A stretch of 39,079 nt of DNA from Chloroflexaceae bacterium (GTDB lineage Bacteria; Chloroflexota; Chloroflexia; Chloroflexales; Chloroflexaceae). The position numbers were made by a program, and so were the translations under genes. A model generated the notes under the pieces. It ran no database searches and was not told the DNA's origin. It saw only the letters and a list, made by a program, of their open reading frames with translations. This document shows positions 2,360-9,656 of the stretch, piece by piece (position 1 is the first letter of the stretch; the number at the start of each line of letters is the position of its first letter). The DNA lies in contig JAAUTZ010000029.1 in NCBI GenBank assembly GCA_012031225.1, positions 1-39,079 on the forward strand, given 5' to 3'.

Positions 2360-2803
2360 TTAGACCTCAAAGCCAACATGAAGTTCACGGATGTCGCTAG
2401 GTCGGCCCTCAGCGTGACTCCCATCGGCGTATGACGGAGGTTCCGCTGCGCCGATAGCAGAAGGACGGAAGCGTTGCACGGCTGGGTTGGGCTGGCGCAA
2501 TGCTACCGGCGGTGCAGGGGTGTGGGCGACTTCTTCGGCTTGGGCTTGGATCAGGGAAAGATAGAGTGGATGCAGGATCGCCACGAGTTCTGGTTCAAGC
2601 CGTTCGGCCAACAAGGCCCGTACATCGTCTTTATACTGGGCCATATCTGCATCGAGTTTCAGCGCAAGCAACACCAATGCGATACGAATGGTCGTAGATG
2701 GATCGCTGTACTGATGTGCAAGGCGATCTAACGCTGGGCTGACCCGTGCCGTGAGACGCTGGGAAAGGCGGCCGCGAGACGCTTTTTGCGCGGTAGGCTT
2801 CAT
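2360..2803 (-). CDS. Small ParR-like partner of an actin-type partition ATPase
   Basis: The 147-residue protein starts at an ATG with GGAGG at 2811-2815; its ATGA start overlaps the stop codon of the upstream ParM-like fragment. The N-terminus is basic (KxxxKASRGRLSQRL), followed by a segment that could be a ribbon-helix-helix-type or helical DNA-binding region (STTIRIALVLLALKLD, about 36-51). A helical middle and a Pro/Ala-rich tail follow. I do not recognise a specific family. The partition role is inferred from the coupling to a ParM-like C-terminus, as in parMR and stbAB pairs. With its partner truncated it is likely an orphan. Confidence 0.45.
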   Translation of the reverse strand: MKPTAQKASRGRLSQRLTARVSPALDRLAHQYSDPSTTIRIALVLLALKLDADMAQYKDDVRALLAERLEPELVAILHPLYLSLIQAQAEEVAHTPAPPVALRQPNPAVQRFRPSAIGAAEPPSYADGSHAEGRPSDIRELHVGFEV

Positions 2804-2983
2804 CCTTCGCCCTCCTGCTGGCGCACCAGCCGCCGTGCTAGGCGAGCATAGCCGCGAGCTACTGCTAGTTGCGGATCGGGCACGACCTGCGCGTGCGGGA
2901 ACCGCTGCTGGATCGCGTCGGTGAGCGGTGCGAGGGCGGCACCACCGCCGCCAAGCAGGATCGCATCGAGTTGCTGTCCACTC
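2800..2983 (-). pseudogene. C-terminal fragment of a ParM/StbA-like actin-fold ATPase
   Basis: The reading frame ending at the TGA at 2800-2802 encodes about 60 residues: LDAILLGGGGAALAP, then a QRFPHAQVVPDPQLAVARGYA stretch split by no gap, and an Arg-rich end. The GGGG loop and the DPQxAVARGYA helix are characteristic of the last subdomain of plasmid-segregation actin homologues such as ParM and StbA. No start codon or upstream domain is present: the homology stops abruptly at about 2983, where a different fragment begins on the other strand. It is therefore a 5'-truncated remnant of a partition operon whose second gene (2360-2803) is still intact. Confidence 0.6.
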
Positions 2984-3192
2984 CCCCACCGCCGACCCCG
3001 CCCTCATGGCGGCGCGGGAGCAGCAATATCGTACTGCGCTCGCGGATGAACTCGACCAGTTCGAGCTGTTTGGCTTGCCGCGCATGAAAGATGTCGTGCT
3101 GTACCAGAAGCTCAGCAATGCCTACATCACGCTGTCGGTGCAGCGTCGCCCCGATGATGATGAGGACGACGACCTGCGCCCCCGCTTCCCGC
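2984..3192 (+). pseudogene. Fragment of a NACHT/STAND-type NTPase protein (pre-NTPase linker region)
   Basis: In the frame containing the ATG at 3006, about 65 residues read as AAREQQYRTALADELDQFEL, then FGLPRMKDVVLYQKLSNAYI and TLSVQRR, followed by an acidic run (PDDDEDDD). The pattern Y-x-x-A-L-x(5)-L-x-L-F-G, then V-x-L and a terminal AYITLS, is what precedes the P-loop in bacterial NACHT-domain proteins. The NTPase domain itself is absent. Both ends are junctions: with the ParM-like fragment near 2983 and with the degenerate CobW-like gene near 3192. Confidence 0.5.
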
Positions 3193-3671
3193 TACCCTCC
3201 CCCACCCAGCCACGCCAGCACCGGCTCCGGCGCGTAGGGCGGCTCCAGCAGCAGATCGGCGTAGAGCTGGTATTGCTCGGCAAGGTGCGGATGGCGCGTG
3301 CGCGTCGCCGCATCGAGCAGGGCCACACTCGCCACCCGCCGACACGGGTGCTGGAGCGTACCCAGCAAGTGCGCCAGCAACGCCGGCTCGGCCCGCGCCG
3401 ATACCAGCAGCAGCACCGTCGCGGCGGGCGCAGCCGCCACCAGCGGAATCAGCCGGCCCGCCAGCGTGCAGCACACACAGCCCCCCGTCAGCCGTACCCG
3501 CCGCACCAGCGGCGGCAGCTGCTCCAGCGGCAGGGGCATATCCCCATTATCAATCAGCAACGTGGCGCGGCCGGTGGCGTGCAGATGGTGCAGCAGCGTC
3601 AGCGTCAGCGCGAGCTTGGCCTGCACGGGCACACCACCCACCGCTAGCAGCGTGGTCGCAGTCAACGTCAT
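3192..3671 (-). CDS. Degenerate, P-loop-less G3E (CobW/COG0523)-like protein
   Basis: 159 residues from the ATG at 3671 (a GTG lies one codon earlier), with AAGG about 8 nt upstream. It aligns with the first half of G3E GTPases: beta strand TLLAVGG, a helix, then LLIDNGD in place of VIVNDxS, then the metal motif GGCVCCTL (Cys65, Cys67, Cys68). The Walker A position reads GGVPVQAKLAL where functional relatives have [11 protein letters not shown], so GTP binding is probably lost. The NKxD motif and CobW C-terminal domain are missing; the protein ends AWLGGGG at the junction with the NACHT fragment. It is divergent from the intact YciC-like gene at 3828. It may be a metal-binding accessory protein or a decaying paralogue; the clean ribosome binding site and open frame favour expression. 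Confidence 0.6.
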   Translation of the reverse strand: MTLTATTLLAVGGVPVQAKLALTLTLLHHLHATGRATLLIDNGDMPLPLEQLPPLVRRVRLTGGCVCCTLAGRLIPLVAAAPAATVLLLVSARAEPALLAHLLGTLQHPCRRVASVALLDAATRTRHPHLAEQYQLYADLLLEPPYAPEPVLAWLGGGG

Positions 3672-3754
3672 CACAGATACCTTCGCTCAGCCCCGATCCC
3701 AAGCGCAGTGCGCTGCATGCAGTCTAGGCCCGCTGCACCTGCCTGTCAAGGTGC

Positions 3755-3827: not shown

Positions 3828-5015
3828 ATGTCCAAACTCCCAGTTACGGTGCTCTCCGGCTTTCTCGGCGCAGGCAAAACCACTCTGCTCAATCACGTCC
3901 TGCACAATCGGCAGGGCATGCGCGTGGCCGTGATCGTCAACGATATGAGCGAAGTCAACATTGACGCATCGCTCGTGCGCGACGGCGGCGCACAGCTCAG
4001 CCGCACCGATGAGCAGCTCGTCGAGATGACCAACGGCTGCATCTGCTGCACCCTGCGCGACGATCTCCTGCGCGAAGTCGCACGCCTTGCCCAAGCGGGC
4101 CGCTTCGATTACCTGCTGATCGAGTCCACCGGCATCTCCGAACCGTTGCCCGTAGCCGCCACCTTCACCTTTGAGCTGCCCGGCGGCGCAAGCCTAAGCG
4201 AGGTTGCCCAGCTCGATACACTCGTCACAGTGGTGGATGGCGAAACCTTCCTGCACGATTACCTCTCGGCCCAAACGCTCAAGGAGCGCGAACTCGCCAC
4301 CGGCGACGAAGATCGGCGCACCATCGTAGATTTGCTTGTCGAGCAGGTGGAGTTTGCCAATGTGCTGGTCATCAATAAACTTGACCGGGCCCACCCGCAA
4401 GATGTCGCCCGACTAGAAGGATTGCTGCACACGCTCAACCCAACCGCCCAGATCATCCGCACCAGTCACGGGCAGGTCGCCCTCGCCGCGATCCTCAATA
4501 CCAGCCTGTTTGATATGGAGCAAGCCCAACGTGCGCCGGGCTGGTTCCGCGAGTTGCAGGGCACGCATACCCCCGAAACGGAGGAGTACGGCATCAGCAG
4601 CTTTGTCTACCGCCAGCGTGCGCCATTCCACCCGCAACGCCTGATGCGCGTGATCCAGAGCAGCGTGTTTCGGCAGGTGCTGCGCTCGAAGGGCTACATC
4701 TGGCTCGCCTCGCGCCCCGCTCACGTGGGCGTATGGTCGAAGGCGGGACGCTTTCTGGGCGTGTCGCCCGGCGGCTATTGGTGGAGTGCTGTGCCGCCCG
4801 AACGCTGGCCGACTGACCCAGATTGGTATGAGCAGTTCCAGCGCGATTGGCATCCCGAATTTGGGGATCGGCGGCAGGAGATCGTGTGCATCGGGATCAA
4901 TATGGATCGGGCGGCGATTGTGCAGGCCCTCGACAATGCCCTGCTCACGCCAGCCGAGCTGGTAGAAGGCTTGGCGGCGTGGGCCCACTACCCCGATCCG
5001 TTTGGCTGGGAATAG
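3828..5015 (+). CDS. G3E GTPase, YciC/ZagA-like metallochaperone (COG0523)
   Basis: 395 residues. The ATG at 3828 is preferred (AAAAGG 9 nt upstream); longer in-frame starts would overlap the promoter. Walker [10 protein letters not shown] (11-19), metal motif CICC (71-74), the [12 protein letters not shown] segment typical of the YciC/ZagA branch (about 99-110), NKLD (183-186) and a CobW C-terminal domain ending in an [13 protein letters not shown] segment. Family members couple GTP hydrolysis to delivery of metal, most often zinc under limitation, to client proteins in the cytoplasm. First gene of a three-gene operon, 28 bp before the DsrE gene. Zinc as the metal is inferred from the subfamily. 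Confidence 0.88.
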
Positions 5016-5043: not shown

Positions 5044-5409
5044 ATGAAGGTTGCGTATATCTTTGCCACATCAGGACACACCGCGAGCTACAAGCTCGGC
5101 AAGATGATCCTGCCTCAACTGGAGACCGGCACGCACGGCGTAACCGTAGTGGGGATGTTCTTCTTCGATGACAACACCTACCTGCTGCGGGCGGGCGATC
5201 CGATGGGCGAACGCTTGGCGCAGGTGGCCGTAGAGCAGGGCATGCTGCTGATGCTGTGCGATCAGTGTGCGCTGGAGCGCGGCTTGGCCGAAGGGATCGC
5301 GGGCAACTGCCACCCGCATGGCACGGTGGCAGGCGTGCAGGTGGGCTGCTTCCCCGATTTGTACGCGGCCCTGTCCGGCAATCCCCCCGATCAAGTGATT
5401 ACGTTGTAA
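5044..5409 (+). CDS. DsrE-family sulfur-carrier-like protein (resembles SaoD)
   Basis: 121 residues with AGGAAGG 5-11 nt upstream of the ATG. It begins with a MKVAYIF strand and contains the segment VVGMFFFDDN and four cysteines: CDQC (72-75), Cys89 and Cys102 in GCFPDLYAAL. The end, NPPDQVITL, and the CDQCALERG and GCFPDLYAAL motifs match my recollection of the DsrE-related family annotated SaoD, a small protein of sulfur and selenium operons. DsrE-fold proteins carry sulfur on a cysteine; CDQC could do this or bind metal. It lies between two G3E GTPases (gaps of 28 and 13 bp), suggesting a joint role in metal or sulfur trafficking. The exact function is not known. Confidence 0.7.
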   Translation: MKVAYIFATSGHTASYKLGKMILPQLETGTHGVTVVGMFFFDDNTYLLRAGDPMGERLAQVAVEQGMLLMLCDQCALERGLAEGIAGNCHPHGTVAGVQVGCFPDLYAALSGNPPDQVITL

Positions 5410-5422
5410 CAGGAGTTCCCCC

Positions 5423-6583
5423 ATGCACGATGATCTCCCAAGCCTACCGATTGTCCCGATCACGCTGTTGGCGGGCTTTCTCGGCGCAGGCAAAACCACC
5501 CTGCTCAACCGGCTGATTGCCTACCAGCGCGGTGAGCGTGTAGCCGTGCTGGTGAATGATTTCGGCAGCATCAATATTGATAGTGCGCTCGTCGTGAATG
5601 TCGAGGGCGATATGGTCAGCCTGAGCAATGGCTGCATCTGCTGCACGATCCGCGAGGATCTGCTCGACACGGTGCTGGATGTGCTGGAACAGCCAGAACC
5701 ACCGCAGCGCATCGTCATTGAAGCGAGTGGCGTTTCGGATCCGTGGGCCCTCGCCGAGACGCTGCTGCTGCCCGACGTGCGTGAGCGGGCCCGCCTTGAG
5801 AGCATCATTACGCTGGTGGATGCCGAGCAAGTGCCCCACGCGCACGCTCTCGGCATGGAGTATGCGTCGCTGCTAATCAACCAGATTGCAGTGGCTGACA
5901 TCCTGATCCTGAATAAGATTGACCTGATTGGCGAACGTGAGCGCGACGCGCTGCACGAATGGGTGCGCCAGATTGTGCCGCAGGCCCGCATGCTCGATGC
6001 GGTGCAAGCCGATGTGCCACTGGCGTTGCTGTTTGATCTGCCGCCCACCGAGCGTACCGCGCCTGCCCACGCTGACCACGCCCACGCTGACCACGCCCAC
6101 GCTGACCACGCCCACGATCACAGCACACAATTTGCAACGTGGAGCTTCACAAGCGATACCCCGCTCCCCCTTGACCGTCTGCGGATTGCCTTGAAGAGCC
6201 TACCGGTTGGAGTCTTCCGTTTGAAGGGCATCTTACAGCTGGCTGAGCAGCGCGAGCGGCAGGTGATTGTGCATGTGGTGGGCAACCGGATTCAGCTGAC
6301 CTTCGGTCCGGGCTGGAACGACACCCCCGCCCAGACGCAGCTGGTGGCGATTGGGCTGCCGCACAGCTTCGACCCCGCCGAGCTGACGCGCCAGTTTGCG
6401 GCGTGCGTGCAGGCGGCTCCGGCGCGGCAGTGGGTGGCGCGGGCGGTGCGGGCGGCATGGCGGTTGGGGCAGGTATGCTCGGTGGTTGCCCGCTCGCATT
6501 ACTATTTGTTGGAGGGAGAGGATTGGTGGGTGCGGGGGCCGTGGCGCACCCTGCCAGCAGCAGGGCCAGTACCAGCCAGATGA
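5423..6583 (+). CDS. G3E GTPase with His-rich loop (CobW/COG0523); 3' end fused to antisense DNA
   Basis: 386 residues. Walker [10 protein letters not shown] (18-26), VNDFGSINID (44-53), CICC (71-74), NKID (164-167), a His/Asp/Ala repeat (about 216-233), then a CobW C-terminal domain (about 238-331). His-rich loops in this position bind zinc, nickel or cobalt in relatives. The gene has its own AGGAG just before the ATG. The last 55 residues (from about base 6416) do not resemble the family: they are the antisense translation of the lipoprotein leader at 6416-6623. The natural end of the protein has therefore probably been replaced by a junction. The enzyme core is complete and likely active. 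Confidence 0.85.
   Translation: MHDDLPSLPIVPITLLAGFLGAGKTTLLNRLIAYQRGERVAVLVNDFGSINIDSALVVNVEGDMVSLSNGCICCTIREDLLDTVLDVLEQPEPPQRIVIEASGVSDPWALAETLLLPDVRERARLESIITLVDAEQVPHAHALGMEYASLLINQIAVADILILNKIDLIGERERDALHEWVRQIVPQARMLDAVQADVPLALLFDLPPTERTAPAHADHAHADHAHADHAHDHSTQFATWSFTSDTPLPLDRLRIALKSLPVGVFRLKGILQLAEQRERQVIVHVVGNRIQLTFGPGWNDTPAQTQLVAIGLPHSFDPAELTRQFAACVQAAPARQWVARAVRAAWRLGQVCSVVARSHYYLLEGEDWWVRGPWRTLPAAGPVPAR
6066..6110 (+). repeat. Three perfect 15-bp tandem repeats encoding the His-rich loop
   Basis: CCCACGCTGACCACG occurs three times back to back (6066-6080, 6081-6095, 6096-6110), followed by a partial fourth copy. Each unit encodes a five-residue piece of the Ala-His-Asp metal-binding loop, so copy-number change by slippage would alter the number of metal ligands without breaking the frame. 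Confidence 0.9.
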
Positions 6584-6872: not shown

Positions 6873-9656
6873 CTAGCGTTGGGTTGCCGTCGGGAGGACG
6901 AAGCTGAAGGTTGTGCCGACCCCAACTTCACTCTCAACCCAGATTGCCCCGCTCATCAACTCAATGAGCGGGCGCGTGAGTGATAGCCCTAGCCCTGTGC
7001 CGCCCGCCTCAATCTTGAGTGCGTTTTCGGTGCGATAGAAGCGATCAAAGATGCGCTCCACATCGGCGGCTTGGATCCCTACGCCAGTGTCACGCACAGT
7101 GATCTGAAGGTACGAACGCCCAGTCTGTAGCCGCTCTTGCACCTGCTCGGTCAGCTCGACATACTGGACTTCGCGTGCATCCACAGCAACTTTACCGCCT
7201 TCCGGCGTATACTTGATCGCATTGGAGATCAGGTTGTAGAGGACTTTGTGCAGTTGGGCGGCATCCGCTTGGACGAGCGGCAAGCCCGGCAGAATGCCTA
7301 GGGTCAGCGCGTGTTTGCGCTGATTGGCACGGGGTCCAAGGTCAATCATCACCCCACTGAGGGCTTCCGCAAGGTGGATCGGGCGTAGGTCGAGGGTGAT
7401 CTCGCCACTCTCAATCTTGGTCAGTTCCAGCACATCATTGATGATCGCAATCATGCGCTCGGAGTTATTCTGGATCGTTGTCATCAACTCCATCTGGGTA
7501 TCGCTGAGGGGGCCAAGATTGCCCATCACCATCAGCTGGGTGAAGCCTTTGATGGCGGTCATCGGGGTGCGTAGCTCGTGCGACATGGTGCTGATGAACT
7601 CGGTCTTGAGCCGATCCGAGATGACTTCGCGGGTGGTGTCACGGATCATTAGAATCGCCCCGATCATCTCATCATCATCGCCGCTCAACACGGGGCTGAG
7701 CTTGAGGCTGAGGATCGCATTATTCAGCTCAAACGTCGTATCAAAGATGCGTAGCTCGCCGGCATTATCTTGAGGGCGGGACAGTAGATCATCGAGCGGC
7801 AGCTCGGCCCGGCGGTTGCCGAGCAAGGTATGCAGGATCGTGTGCAGATCTTGCAGCAGCAACTCCTCGTAGGAACGCCCCAACAGGCGTTCCGTCGCCC
7901 GATTCACAAGCTGCACTGCGCCGTAAATATCACACACGATTACGCCATCCACGAGGCTCTGCATAATCGAGGTGATCTGAGTACTTTCAGCGCGGAGCCG
8001 TTGCAGCACACTGCTGCGCTCATTCATTGTGTCGGCAATCGTAGTGAACAGGTTCGCGTTATACACCCCAACCGCAATCGTGCCTGCTGCCGCCGCGAGG
8101 AGGCGTATATGGTCTTGGTTGAAGTAATCCTGCGTATTGTGCGAAAGGGTCAAGACCCCGACGACTTCTTGGTGGGCAATCAAGGGCACGGAGAGAATCG
8201 AGCCTGCCTGCTTGTTCGTCAGTTGCTGATTGGGACTCATCACCCAGCGTTCGTCAGCCTGCACATCGGGGATCAGCGCGGGCTTCTTGTGTTGCGCCAC
8301 CCACCCCGCTACGCCTGAGCCAATCGGGAAGCGCACATAAGTATCCACGCTGGGATAGCCAAGAACAGCGCGGGTTTCGAGCTGCTCAGTCTCCCGATCC
8401 ACGAGCATAATCGAGCCATACGGCGCACGGACAATCTGGGCCAACGATTGCAGCGAGGCCGTCAGGAGCACATCTACATCAAGGGTGCTACTGACCTCTA
8501 CGGAGATTTCTTGCAGCGCAGTCAGGCGTTCTTTCTCAGCTGCAAGCTCACCTGAACGTTGCTCGACAATCTGGTTCAGGTCATTGTTAAAGAGCAGCAC
8601 CTGCCGATATAGGCGCACATTGTCGAGCGCAATCGCAAGCTGGCTGACTAAGCCGATGAGCAGGTTCTGCCGTTCTAGCGTGAAATGTTCCGTCGGCAGA
8701 TCATCCTGCAACAGCACCACGCCGCTCGCCAGATTGTGGGCAACGAGGGGTACGACAATAATCCCATGCTGGGGGAAGTGCCATGGCCACTGGGCCGTTT
8801 CGCTGAAGGCAAGGTCGCCGTCGATGAGGGGTGTTTTGAGCAGGTACGCCCGCAACACGGGATCCTCATCAGGATCAGTTGAGGCGGTGGTCAGGTTCAG
8901 TTGTACCTGATCAAGATGGTTCGCCGCTGTGCCCCACACCCGCAGCGGTGAGAGGCGTGTAGCGGTGTCCTCGCTGCTATCGTCGGCATCGTGCATCCAG
9001 ACACTGAGATGCTGGGGGCTGAGGAGATCCATGATCTTGTCGGCAACAACTTCGAGCGCGGCATCAACATCGGCATGCTCCATCGAAGAAGCTAGCTCTT
9101 GGGCAGTGGCATTCAAGGCTTGTAGATTGAGGGCAGCCTGATCTACTTCTTCCATTGCACTGGACATGCTCTGCGTCAGAAATGTAACTTCCTGCATCTG
9201 CTGGTGCTGTACCGCAGCAACGGCGTTGCTCCATGCCTGAACGAGGATCTCAACTGATTGTTCGAGCAGGTGCTCCAGATCAGTCATCAGGGCAAAGCGG
9301 TGCGCCGGATCGGACTCGGTTTCTTGCAACGTCTGCCACGCGCTCCGCCGCAGCTGAAACGACACTTGCAGCAAATCGGGCAGGCGGAGCGTATCCAGAT
9401 CACTCTCCACCAACAGCTGGAGTTGGTGGTTCAGGCCCTCCGTTGCGCCGTGTGCCGCGCCAATCAGCGCATCAAACACCGGCACAAAAGCAGCAACCCG
9501 GGCATCCTCCGCCGTCTCAACTGCGACTGCGCCGTTCTCCTCGCTGCCGTGCGCCACCTGCTCGGCGGGAATACGTGCTGTCGCAACTGCTGCGCCCCAG
9601 CGTTGCAGCAAAACATCACGTTGTTCAGTTAGCCATTGGGCCAGTGCTATGCTCAT
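6873..9656 (-). CDS. Multidomain sensor histidine kinase (RsbRD-like N-terminus, two GAF, PAS, HisKA, HATPase)
   Basis: 927 residues, no membrane segment or signal peptide, so cytoplasmic. Domains in order: a helical N-terminal region (about 1-165) resembling RsbRD-type sensors, a helical linker, GAF (about 200-345), coiled linker (345-385), GAF (about 395-540), PAS (about 560-670), HisKA with MSHELRTPMTAIKGF (phospho-acceptor His693), and an ATPase domain with N box LYNLISNAIKYTP, G1 DTGVGI and G2 GTGLGLSL. It lacks a receiver domain, and no response regulator gene lies nearby. Last gene of the operon containing rsbT- and rsbX-like genes, 39 bp after the latter, suggesting that it feeds or reads the partner-switching module. 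The start at 9656 has a weak ribosome binding site. Confidence 0.92.
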   Translation of the reverse strand: MSIALAQWLTEQRDVLLQRWGAAVATARIPAEQVAHGSEENGAVAVETAEDARVAAFVPVFDALIGAAHGATEGLNHQLQLLVESDLDTLRLPDLLQVSFQLRRSAWQTLQETESDPAHRFALMTDLEHLLEQSVEILVQAWSNAVAAVQHQQMQEVTFLTQSMSSAMEEVDQAALNLQALNATAQELASSMEHADVDAALEVVADKIMDLLSPQHLSVWMHDADDSSEDTATRLSPLRVWGTAANHLDQVQLNLTTASTDPDEDPVLRAYLLKTPLIDGDLAFSETAQWPWHFPQHGIIVVPLVAHNLASGVVLLQDDLPTEHFTLERQNLLIGLVSQLAIALDNVRLYRQVLLFNNDLNQIVEQRSGELAAEKERLTALQEISVEVSSTLDVDVLLTASLQSLAQIVRAPYGSIMLVDRETEQLETRAVLGYPSVDTYVRFPIGSGVAGWVAQHKKPALIPDVQADERWVMSPNQQLTNKQAGSILSVPLIAHQEVVGVLTLSHNTQDYFNQDHIRLLAAAAGTIAVGVYNANLFTTIADTMNERSSVLQRLRAESTQITSIMQSLVDGVIVCDIYGAVQLVNRATERLLGRSYEELLLQDLHTILHTLLGNRRAELPLDDLLSRPQDNAGELRIFDTTFELNNAILSLKLSPVLSGDDDEMIGAILMIRDTTREVISDRLKTEFISTMSHELRTPMTAIKGFTQLMVMGNLGPLSDTQMELMTTIQNNSERMIAIINDVLELTKIESGEITLDLRPIHLAEALSGVMIDLGPRANQRKHALTLGILPGLPLVQADAAQLHKVLYNLISNAIKYTPEGGKVAVDAREVQYVELTEQVQERLQTGRSYLQITVRDTGVGIQAADVERIFDRFYRTENALKIEAGGTGLGLSLTRPLIELMSGAIWVESEVGVGTTFSFVLPTATQR

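Follow-up and report, generated by a model that had tools for sequence, protein, structure and literature searches.

The window, as we call the whole 39,079-nucleotide stretch of DNA that was analysed, encodes on its minus strand a protein of 159 residues, here referred to as pseudo-G3E, which appears to be a short, single-domain descendant of the COG0523/G3E GTPases that has lost the residues for Mg-GTP binding and hydrolysis and retained the metal site. We propose, with confidence and doubt in about equal measure, that it is a pseudo-GTPase of a Zur-type zinc-limitation regulon, where it would hold Zn2+ independently of GTP as a partner of a neighbouring intact G3E protein. Pseudo-enzymes are familiar among eukaryotic kinases and GTPases, and a protein of this kind would bring them into bacterial metal trafficking. 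As a conserved COG0523 relative whose GTP machinery is gone but whose metal motif and zinc-regulon context are retained, it would also test which function needs GTP, and it bears on the coupling of GTP to the loading and release of metal in COG0523 proteins. The gene and its motifs lie as follows:

3192..3671, minus strand: pseudo-G3E protein, 159 aa (ATG at 3671, stop at 3192-3194)
3680..3684, minus strand: ribosome-binding-like GAAGG
3612..3635, minus strand: degraded P-loop, residues 13-20, GVPVQAKL (first Gly and Lys remain; second and third Gly and Thr gone)
3534..3551, minus strand: D41-N-G-D44-M-P46 motif (D41 aligned with the YjiA metal-site Glu37; mostly Val in intact G3E proteins)
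3468..3479, minus strand: CxCC metal motif C65-V-C67-C68

A sequence-only reading of this DNA had placed the open reading frame at 3192-3671, leaving its strand unstated, and had credited it with a clean start and a ribosome-binding site. The frame is real and these bounds hold on the minus strand, with the ATG preceded at 8 nt by the GAAGG element; translation could alternatively begin at an in-frame GTG (3674). Coding on the plus strand (an open frame at 2928-3647) was rejected, its 2928-3190 part lacking any Pfam match and the conserved protein being that of the minus strand. Directly downstream of the gene, positions 2363-3190 are devoid of recognisable genes and Pfam matches and look by eye like gene fragments of both strands joined together.

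The search for orthologues that the same reading had suggested found five besides the window protein. Four, at 76, 48, 43 and 40% identity, came from a search of 60 relatives, and the sixth member of the family, in genome G065, from a profile search of 158 genomes of the class. The six belong to five genera, span 76% to about 33% identity and are all open frames of approximately 150-165 residues with zero internal stops; the P-loop losses are the same in all five orthologues, none of which has an intact P-loop. Relative to the same-genus orthologue, pseudo-G3E has a dN/dS of 0.26, compared to 0.07-0.10 for neighbouring genes, and is clearly under purifying selection, with constraint weaker than theirs. 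Orthologues with identical losses, together with this selection, rule out a local pseudogene. That the gene might more broadly be a decaying paralogue, a pseudogene in the process of loss, is disfavoured and barely credible: its position at the edge of the geneless stretch, its patchy distribution (6 of the 158 class genomes) and the weaker constraint would suit decay, but six uninterrupted frames in five genera, residues that stay invariant at 33% identity, the dN/dS value, and promoters and an operator that are themselves conserved all argue for a gene in use. A broader sample of the phylum (400 genomes) yielded a distant homologue in G369 (74 bits) and, in G406, a short homologue with an intact P-loop. 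A plasmid collection gave no match, and a degenerate-pattern scan of one genome per species, whose reach was limited to close relatives, found no P-loop-less member beyond the same-genus one.

Affinity to the G3E GTPases is most evident when profiles are compared. The family profile matched that of 24 intact G3E domains with an hhalign probability of 98.1 (E = 6e-14, 135 columns), with the two P-loops superposed and the NKxD strand aligned to the end of the pseudo-G3E protein. Single-sequence scores are lower: Pfam cobW matches residues 59-142 of the window protein at 17.1 bits (cut-off 20.7) and all five members scanned (best E 9.8e-5), and the best NCBIfam match of the window protein is NF041053, the CobW-related selenoprotein, at 18.3 bits (cut-off 180). 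In a tree, a branch (100/99) sets the seven homologues (the six members and the G369 protein) apart, but the branches are long and, for that reason, the exact origin of the seven within G3E is unsure. A structural model built from a mixed alignment (pLDDT 93.8, pTM 0.89) matches HypB, UreG, MeaB, SRP GTPases (FtsY) and YjiA at Z 11-12, although intact G3E proteins were part of that alignment and the match is thus not independent. Modelled from the six members alone (pLDDT 85.6), the protein resembles generic Rossmann-like proteins, with no G3E among the matches listed (Foldseek, VIA-align), and the six-member profile reaches YjiA among solved structures at E 0.13. The sole phmmer match among solved structures (OR280, E 0.011) was taken as chance. 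Descent from COG0523/G3E rests on sequence evidence, and the resemblance is, judging from the orthologues in five genera and the profile-profile match, not one of chance.

The GTP-binding motifs were traced in an alignment of the seven homologues with 30 intact G3E domains, where the GGVPVQAKLAL that had been assigned to the Walker A position does lie over the intact P-loop. The accompanying claim that the P-loop is lost stands in part: positions 16, 18, 20 and 21, which are Gly, Gly, Thr and Thr in intact G3E proteins, are changed in all seven homologues, but the first P-loop Gly (G13) and the P-loop Lys (K19) are invariant in the same seven, so the loop is degraded, not gone. Across the homologues the third Gly has become Ala, Pro, Leu or Glu and the first Thr has become Leu, Ile, Ala, Glu, Met or Gly, and every one departs from GxxGxGK[TS] by two of its three Gly and both Thr. 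Equally consistent (7/7 in each case) are the absence of the Walker B Glu of hhhExxG, with Leu, Ile, Val, Pro or Ala at position 89, of the Gly that follows it (position 92, Ala or Glu), and of the NKxD base-recognition motif, in whose place stand ADLLLEPP and equivalents; P-loop Gly and Thr and the Walker B Glu are retained in 30/30 of the intact domains. The window protein ends after the equivalent of the G domain, with no Pfam match to CobW_C, and the alignment and Pfam together uphold the earlier observation that it has neither NKxD nor a C-terminal domain.

What remains of the P-loop, its first Gly and its Lys, might still allow some binding of phosphate and to that extent counts against our reading. 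The two residues might belong to a rewired site whose ligand is another nucleotide or some other phosphate compound, or which binds GTP weakly when helped by a partner, and their invariance in all seven homologues when the rest of the loop is gone, the weak scores of some members against other P-loop families (APS kinase and KTI12), and the APS kinases among the structural matches of the mixed-alignment model are consistent with this. Nevertheless, we think it unlikely: with two Gly, both Thr, the Walker B Glu and NKxD gone, the canonical Mg and base contacts are missing, and in Nha3, a COG0523 protein, no nitrile hydratase activity can be detected in vivo once the Lys or Thr of the P-loop is substituted (PMC9164220).

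By contrast, the metal site is largely intact. The GGCVCCTL noted in the sequence-only reading is present in the window protein, and GCxCC (CVCC here) is retained in six of the seven homologues, G369 being the exception. The Asn of the VND/ENE strand is kept in all seven, and directly before it stands an invariant Asp, D41, at a position occupied by Val in most intact G3E proteins and by Glu in the YjiA type. Counted along the alignment, the counterpart of D41 in the E. coli YjiA chain is Glu37, one of three residues mutated in the Zn-bound PDB entry 4ixn (E37A,C66A,C67A; entry title). With GCxCC and D41 conserved, the family therefore retains the cysteines together with a carboxylate where YjiA has a metal-site residue, and among the six close members neither CxCC nor D41 varies although identities fall to 33%. 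The G369 homologue (L127:7795-8232) has the same degraded P-loop (GLATIEK), lacks the whole GCxCC and has no adjoining G3E gene; going by its sequence, its role must be independent of the GCxCC metal site. Since this distant relative lacks the cysteines, metal binding may not be the whole function of pseudo-G3E.

Compared to known COG0523/G3E GTPases (CobW, ZigA, YjiA, ZNG1), pseudo-G3E has a homologous domain, the same order of secondary structures and GCxCC, and with the zinc-linked COG0523 subset it has in common a Zur-type genomic context (PMC2770081); unlike them all, it has no functional P-loop, Walker B Glu, NKxD or CobW_C. The sole precedent for a P-loop-less COG0523 protein found in the literature is a remark on the mycobacterial MRF-type Rv0106, which lacks Walker A as well as the canonical CxCC (PMC2770081). 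Having CxSC, Rv0106 differs from the window protein, which consists of one short domain and presents the converse: it keeps CxCC and has lost the GTP motifs. The NF041053 selenoprotein is likewise a short, single-domain G3E protein of similar size (195 positions), but NF041053-type short homologues in the phylum (G041, G037) have an intact P-loop. A further relative is the short homologue in G406 (L128:7710-8276), a single domain with GCVCC encoded directly before a full-length G3E gene and matched by the pseudo-G3E profile at E 1e-13; it differs in its intact P-loop (GYSRVGKSS) and retained Walker B Glu, its NKxD being degenerate. From its sequence, the G406 type is a possible intermediate on the way to pseudo-G3E.

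How such a protein might work can be considered against the intact enzymes. In CobW, assembly of the site that binds metal with high affinity requires Mg and the GTP gamma-phosphate, and both Mg-GTP-YjiA and Mg-GTP-YeiR prefer Zn2+ as their metal (PMC7895991). Because high-affinity binding in CobW needs Mg-GTP, a G3E protein without GTP motifs could not use that gate and, by analogy, is not expected to run a CobW-type cycle; the conserved cysteines and Asp suggest instead a metal site that does not await GTP. The conserved site, taken together with the zinc regulon and the constant G3E neighbours (see below), makes a GTP-independent zinc-holding partner the most likely role. When zinc is scarce, the repressor would leave the shared operator region and pseudo-G3E would be made together with the intact G3E GTPases (ZigA and the CobW-like protein); CxCC and the invariant Asp would then hold Zn2+ without GTP gating, and the protein would act with the neighbouring intact G3E protein by giving it zinc or receiving zinc from it. 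Alternatively, the two might form an asymmetric pair with GTP on one partner alone. A more specific version, in which pseudo-G3E is a nucleotide-free zinc donor or acceptor with a carboxylate at the YjiA Glu37 position, serving co-expressed COG0523 GTPases in a GTP-asymmetric, two-component zinc relay, is possible but offered tentatively.

The neighbouring genes on the opposite strand are these:

3828..5015, plus strand: ZigA, intact COG0523 zinc metallochaperone GTPase (ATG at 3828; NF038288, 615.6 bits, cut-off 600)
5044..5409, plus strand: SaoD/DsrE-family protein between the two intact G3E genes (NF040913, 199 bits, cut-off 152)
5423..6583, plus strand: CobW-like intact G3E GTPase with a His-rich stretch

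The two intact G3E proteins mentioned in the sequence-only reading are thus encoded here, and the YciC-like gene it was said to face is the divergent ZigA. The three-gene order ZigA-DsrE-CobW, with pseudo-G3E divergent from it, occurs in the window genome (G000) and in G001, the same-genus genome. In G016, pseudo-G3E is just upstream of, and co-directional with, a FUR-family (Zur-like) gene and divergent from a Zn-ribbon-CobW-ZigA-ZigA group, with YjiA-WD40 close by; in G045 it belongs to a tandem array, YjiA-WD40-pseudo-G3E-Zn ribbon-CobW, its TTG start directly after the WD40 stop codon. Its start overlaps the end of CobW in G015, and in G065 it follows CobW by 45-60 bp. A relative of the CobW-like protein is the G3E gene adjoining pseudo-G3E in several other genomes. 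The His-rich stretch of the CobW-like protein (window 6067-6120) consists of repeated HADHA/DHAH units; such stretches are typical of metal-storing G3E proteins.

All six pseudo-G3E genes thus adjoin intact G3E genes or lie within a few genes of them, a constancy that would also suit a GTP-dead subunit whose main job is contact with the intact neighbour and not metal carriage, either adjusting the neighbour's GTPase cycle or preventing it from forming a homodimer. G3E proteins such as HypB do function as dimers (PMC9164220), and this explanation gains some weight from the G369 homologue, in which CxCC is gone while the degraded P-loop and presumably the fold persist, a pattern that selection on the fold would produce. 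The same homologue has no adjoining G3E gene, however, and the lack of any variation in CxCC and D41 among the six close members speaks against such a subunit, which we regard as rather unlikely.

For the zinc-holding partner, evidence on regulation comes from the intergenic region, where a promoter scan found five sites in the scanned region, compared to 0.6 in shuffles:

3721..3749, minus strand: promoter-like TTGACA-17-TAGACT towards pseudo-G3E, conserved in the same-genus genome
3755..3783, plus strand: promoter-like TTGACA-17-TACACT towards ZigA, back to back with the former and likewise conserved in the same-genus genome
3795..3811, no strand: Zur-like operator palindrome TTGAGACTATGTATCAA, its core within 24 bases that recur unchanged in the same-genus genome

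In the 4.2-Mb window genome, the pattern TTGANACNNNGTNTCAA is matched perfectly at three places: in the pseudo-G3E/ZigA intergenic region, before a second ZigA (contig C153) and approximately 60 bp before a FUR gene (C126), which resembles the FUR gene adjoining the G016 orthologue and which, by our reading of its sequence, has a Zur-like C-terminal part with CxxC pairs. At one mismatch or fewer there are seven sites, including those that precede YjiA-WD40 (C30) and a methyltransferase gene (C166), compared to three for the reversed-pattern control, and 99 kb of shuffled sequence contained zero sites with fewer than two mismatches. The box also precedes relevant genes in G001 and G016 (on both sides in the latter), and it recurs in G045 in several copies with two or three mismatches and in G065 with two mismatches; this comparison leaves out G015, whose contig ends close to the start of the CobW-like gene. 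From these sites we infer a putative Zur regulon. The position of pseudo-G3E had been considered suited to co-regulation with the YciC/ZigA-like gene, and this is supported by the back-to-back divergent promoters, by a Zur-like operator common to other zinc genes, and, in two other genomes, by co-directional arrays that follow operators of this type. The window's perfect operator overlaps the point where ZigA transcription probably starts, and the -35 box of pseudo-G3E comes about 45 bp downstream of it; because of this position its direct control of pseudo-G3E is less certain here than in G016, G045 and G065.

The FUR-adjoining arrangement in G016, where the Zur-like gene directly follows pseudo-G3E in the same direction, might alternatively point to a role in zinc-dependent regulation or sensing, for instance by donating zinc to the FUR/Zur repressor or modulating it. 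This appears very unlikely, as that arrangement is found in one of the six genomes, the neighbours elsewhere being G3E genes, and pseudo-G3E has no DNA-binding domain.

Several neighbours and box-preceded genes merit a brief description. SaoD/DsrE (window 5044-5409), of a sulfur-handling family, sits inside the zinc gene group, and a literature search on SaoD and the CobW-related selenoprotein found nothing relevant. The one-mismatch box on C166 of the window genome (G000:C166:19929-19945, L111) is directly upstream of a SAM-dependent methyltransferase gene whose product has CxxC pairs at its N-terminus. A small Zn-ribbon protein is encoded just before the CobW-like gene in G016 (L029:5973-6269) and G045 (L030, ~9300-9500). 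Lastly, three genomes share a pair in which a WD40 beta-propeller gene comes after a G3E gene of the YjiA type (L100:424-3355, on C30 of G000; L029:996-3472; L030:9975-12523); a Zur-like box precedes the pair in G000 and G045, and a WD40 protein is unexpected in a zinc regulon.
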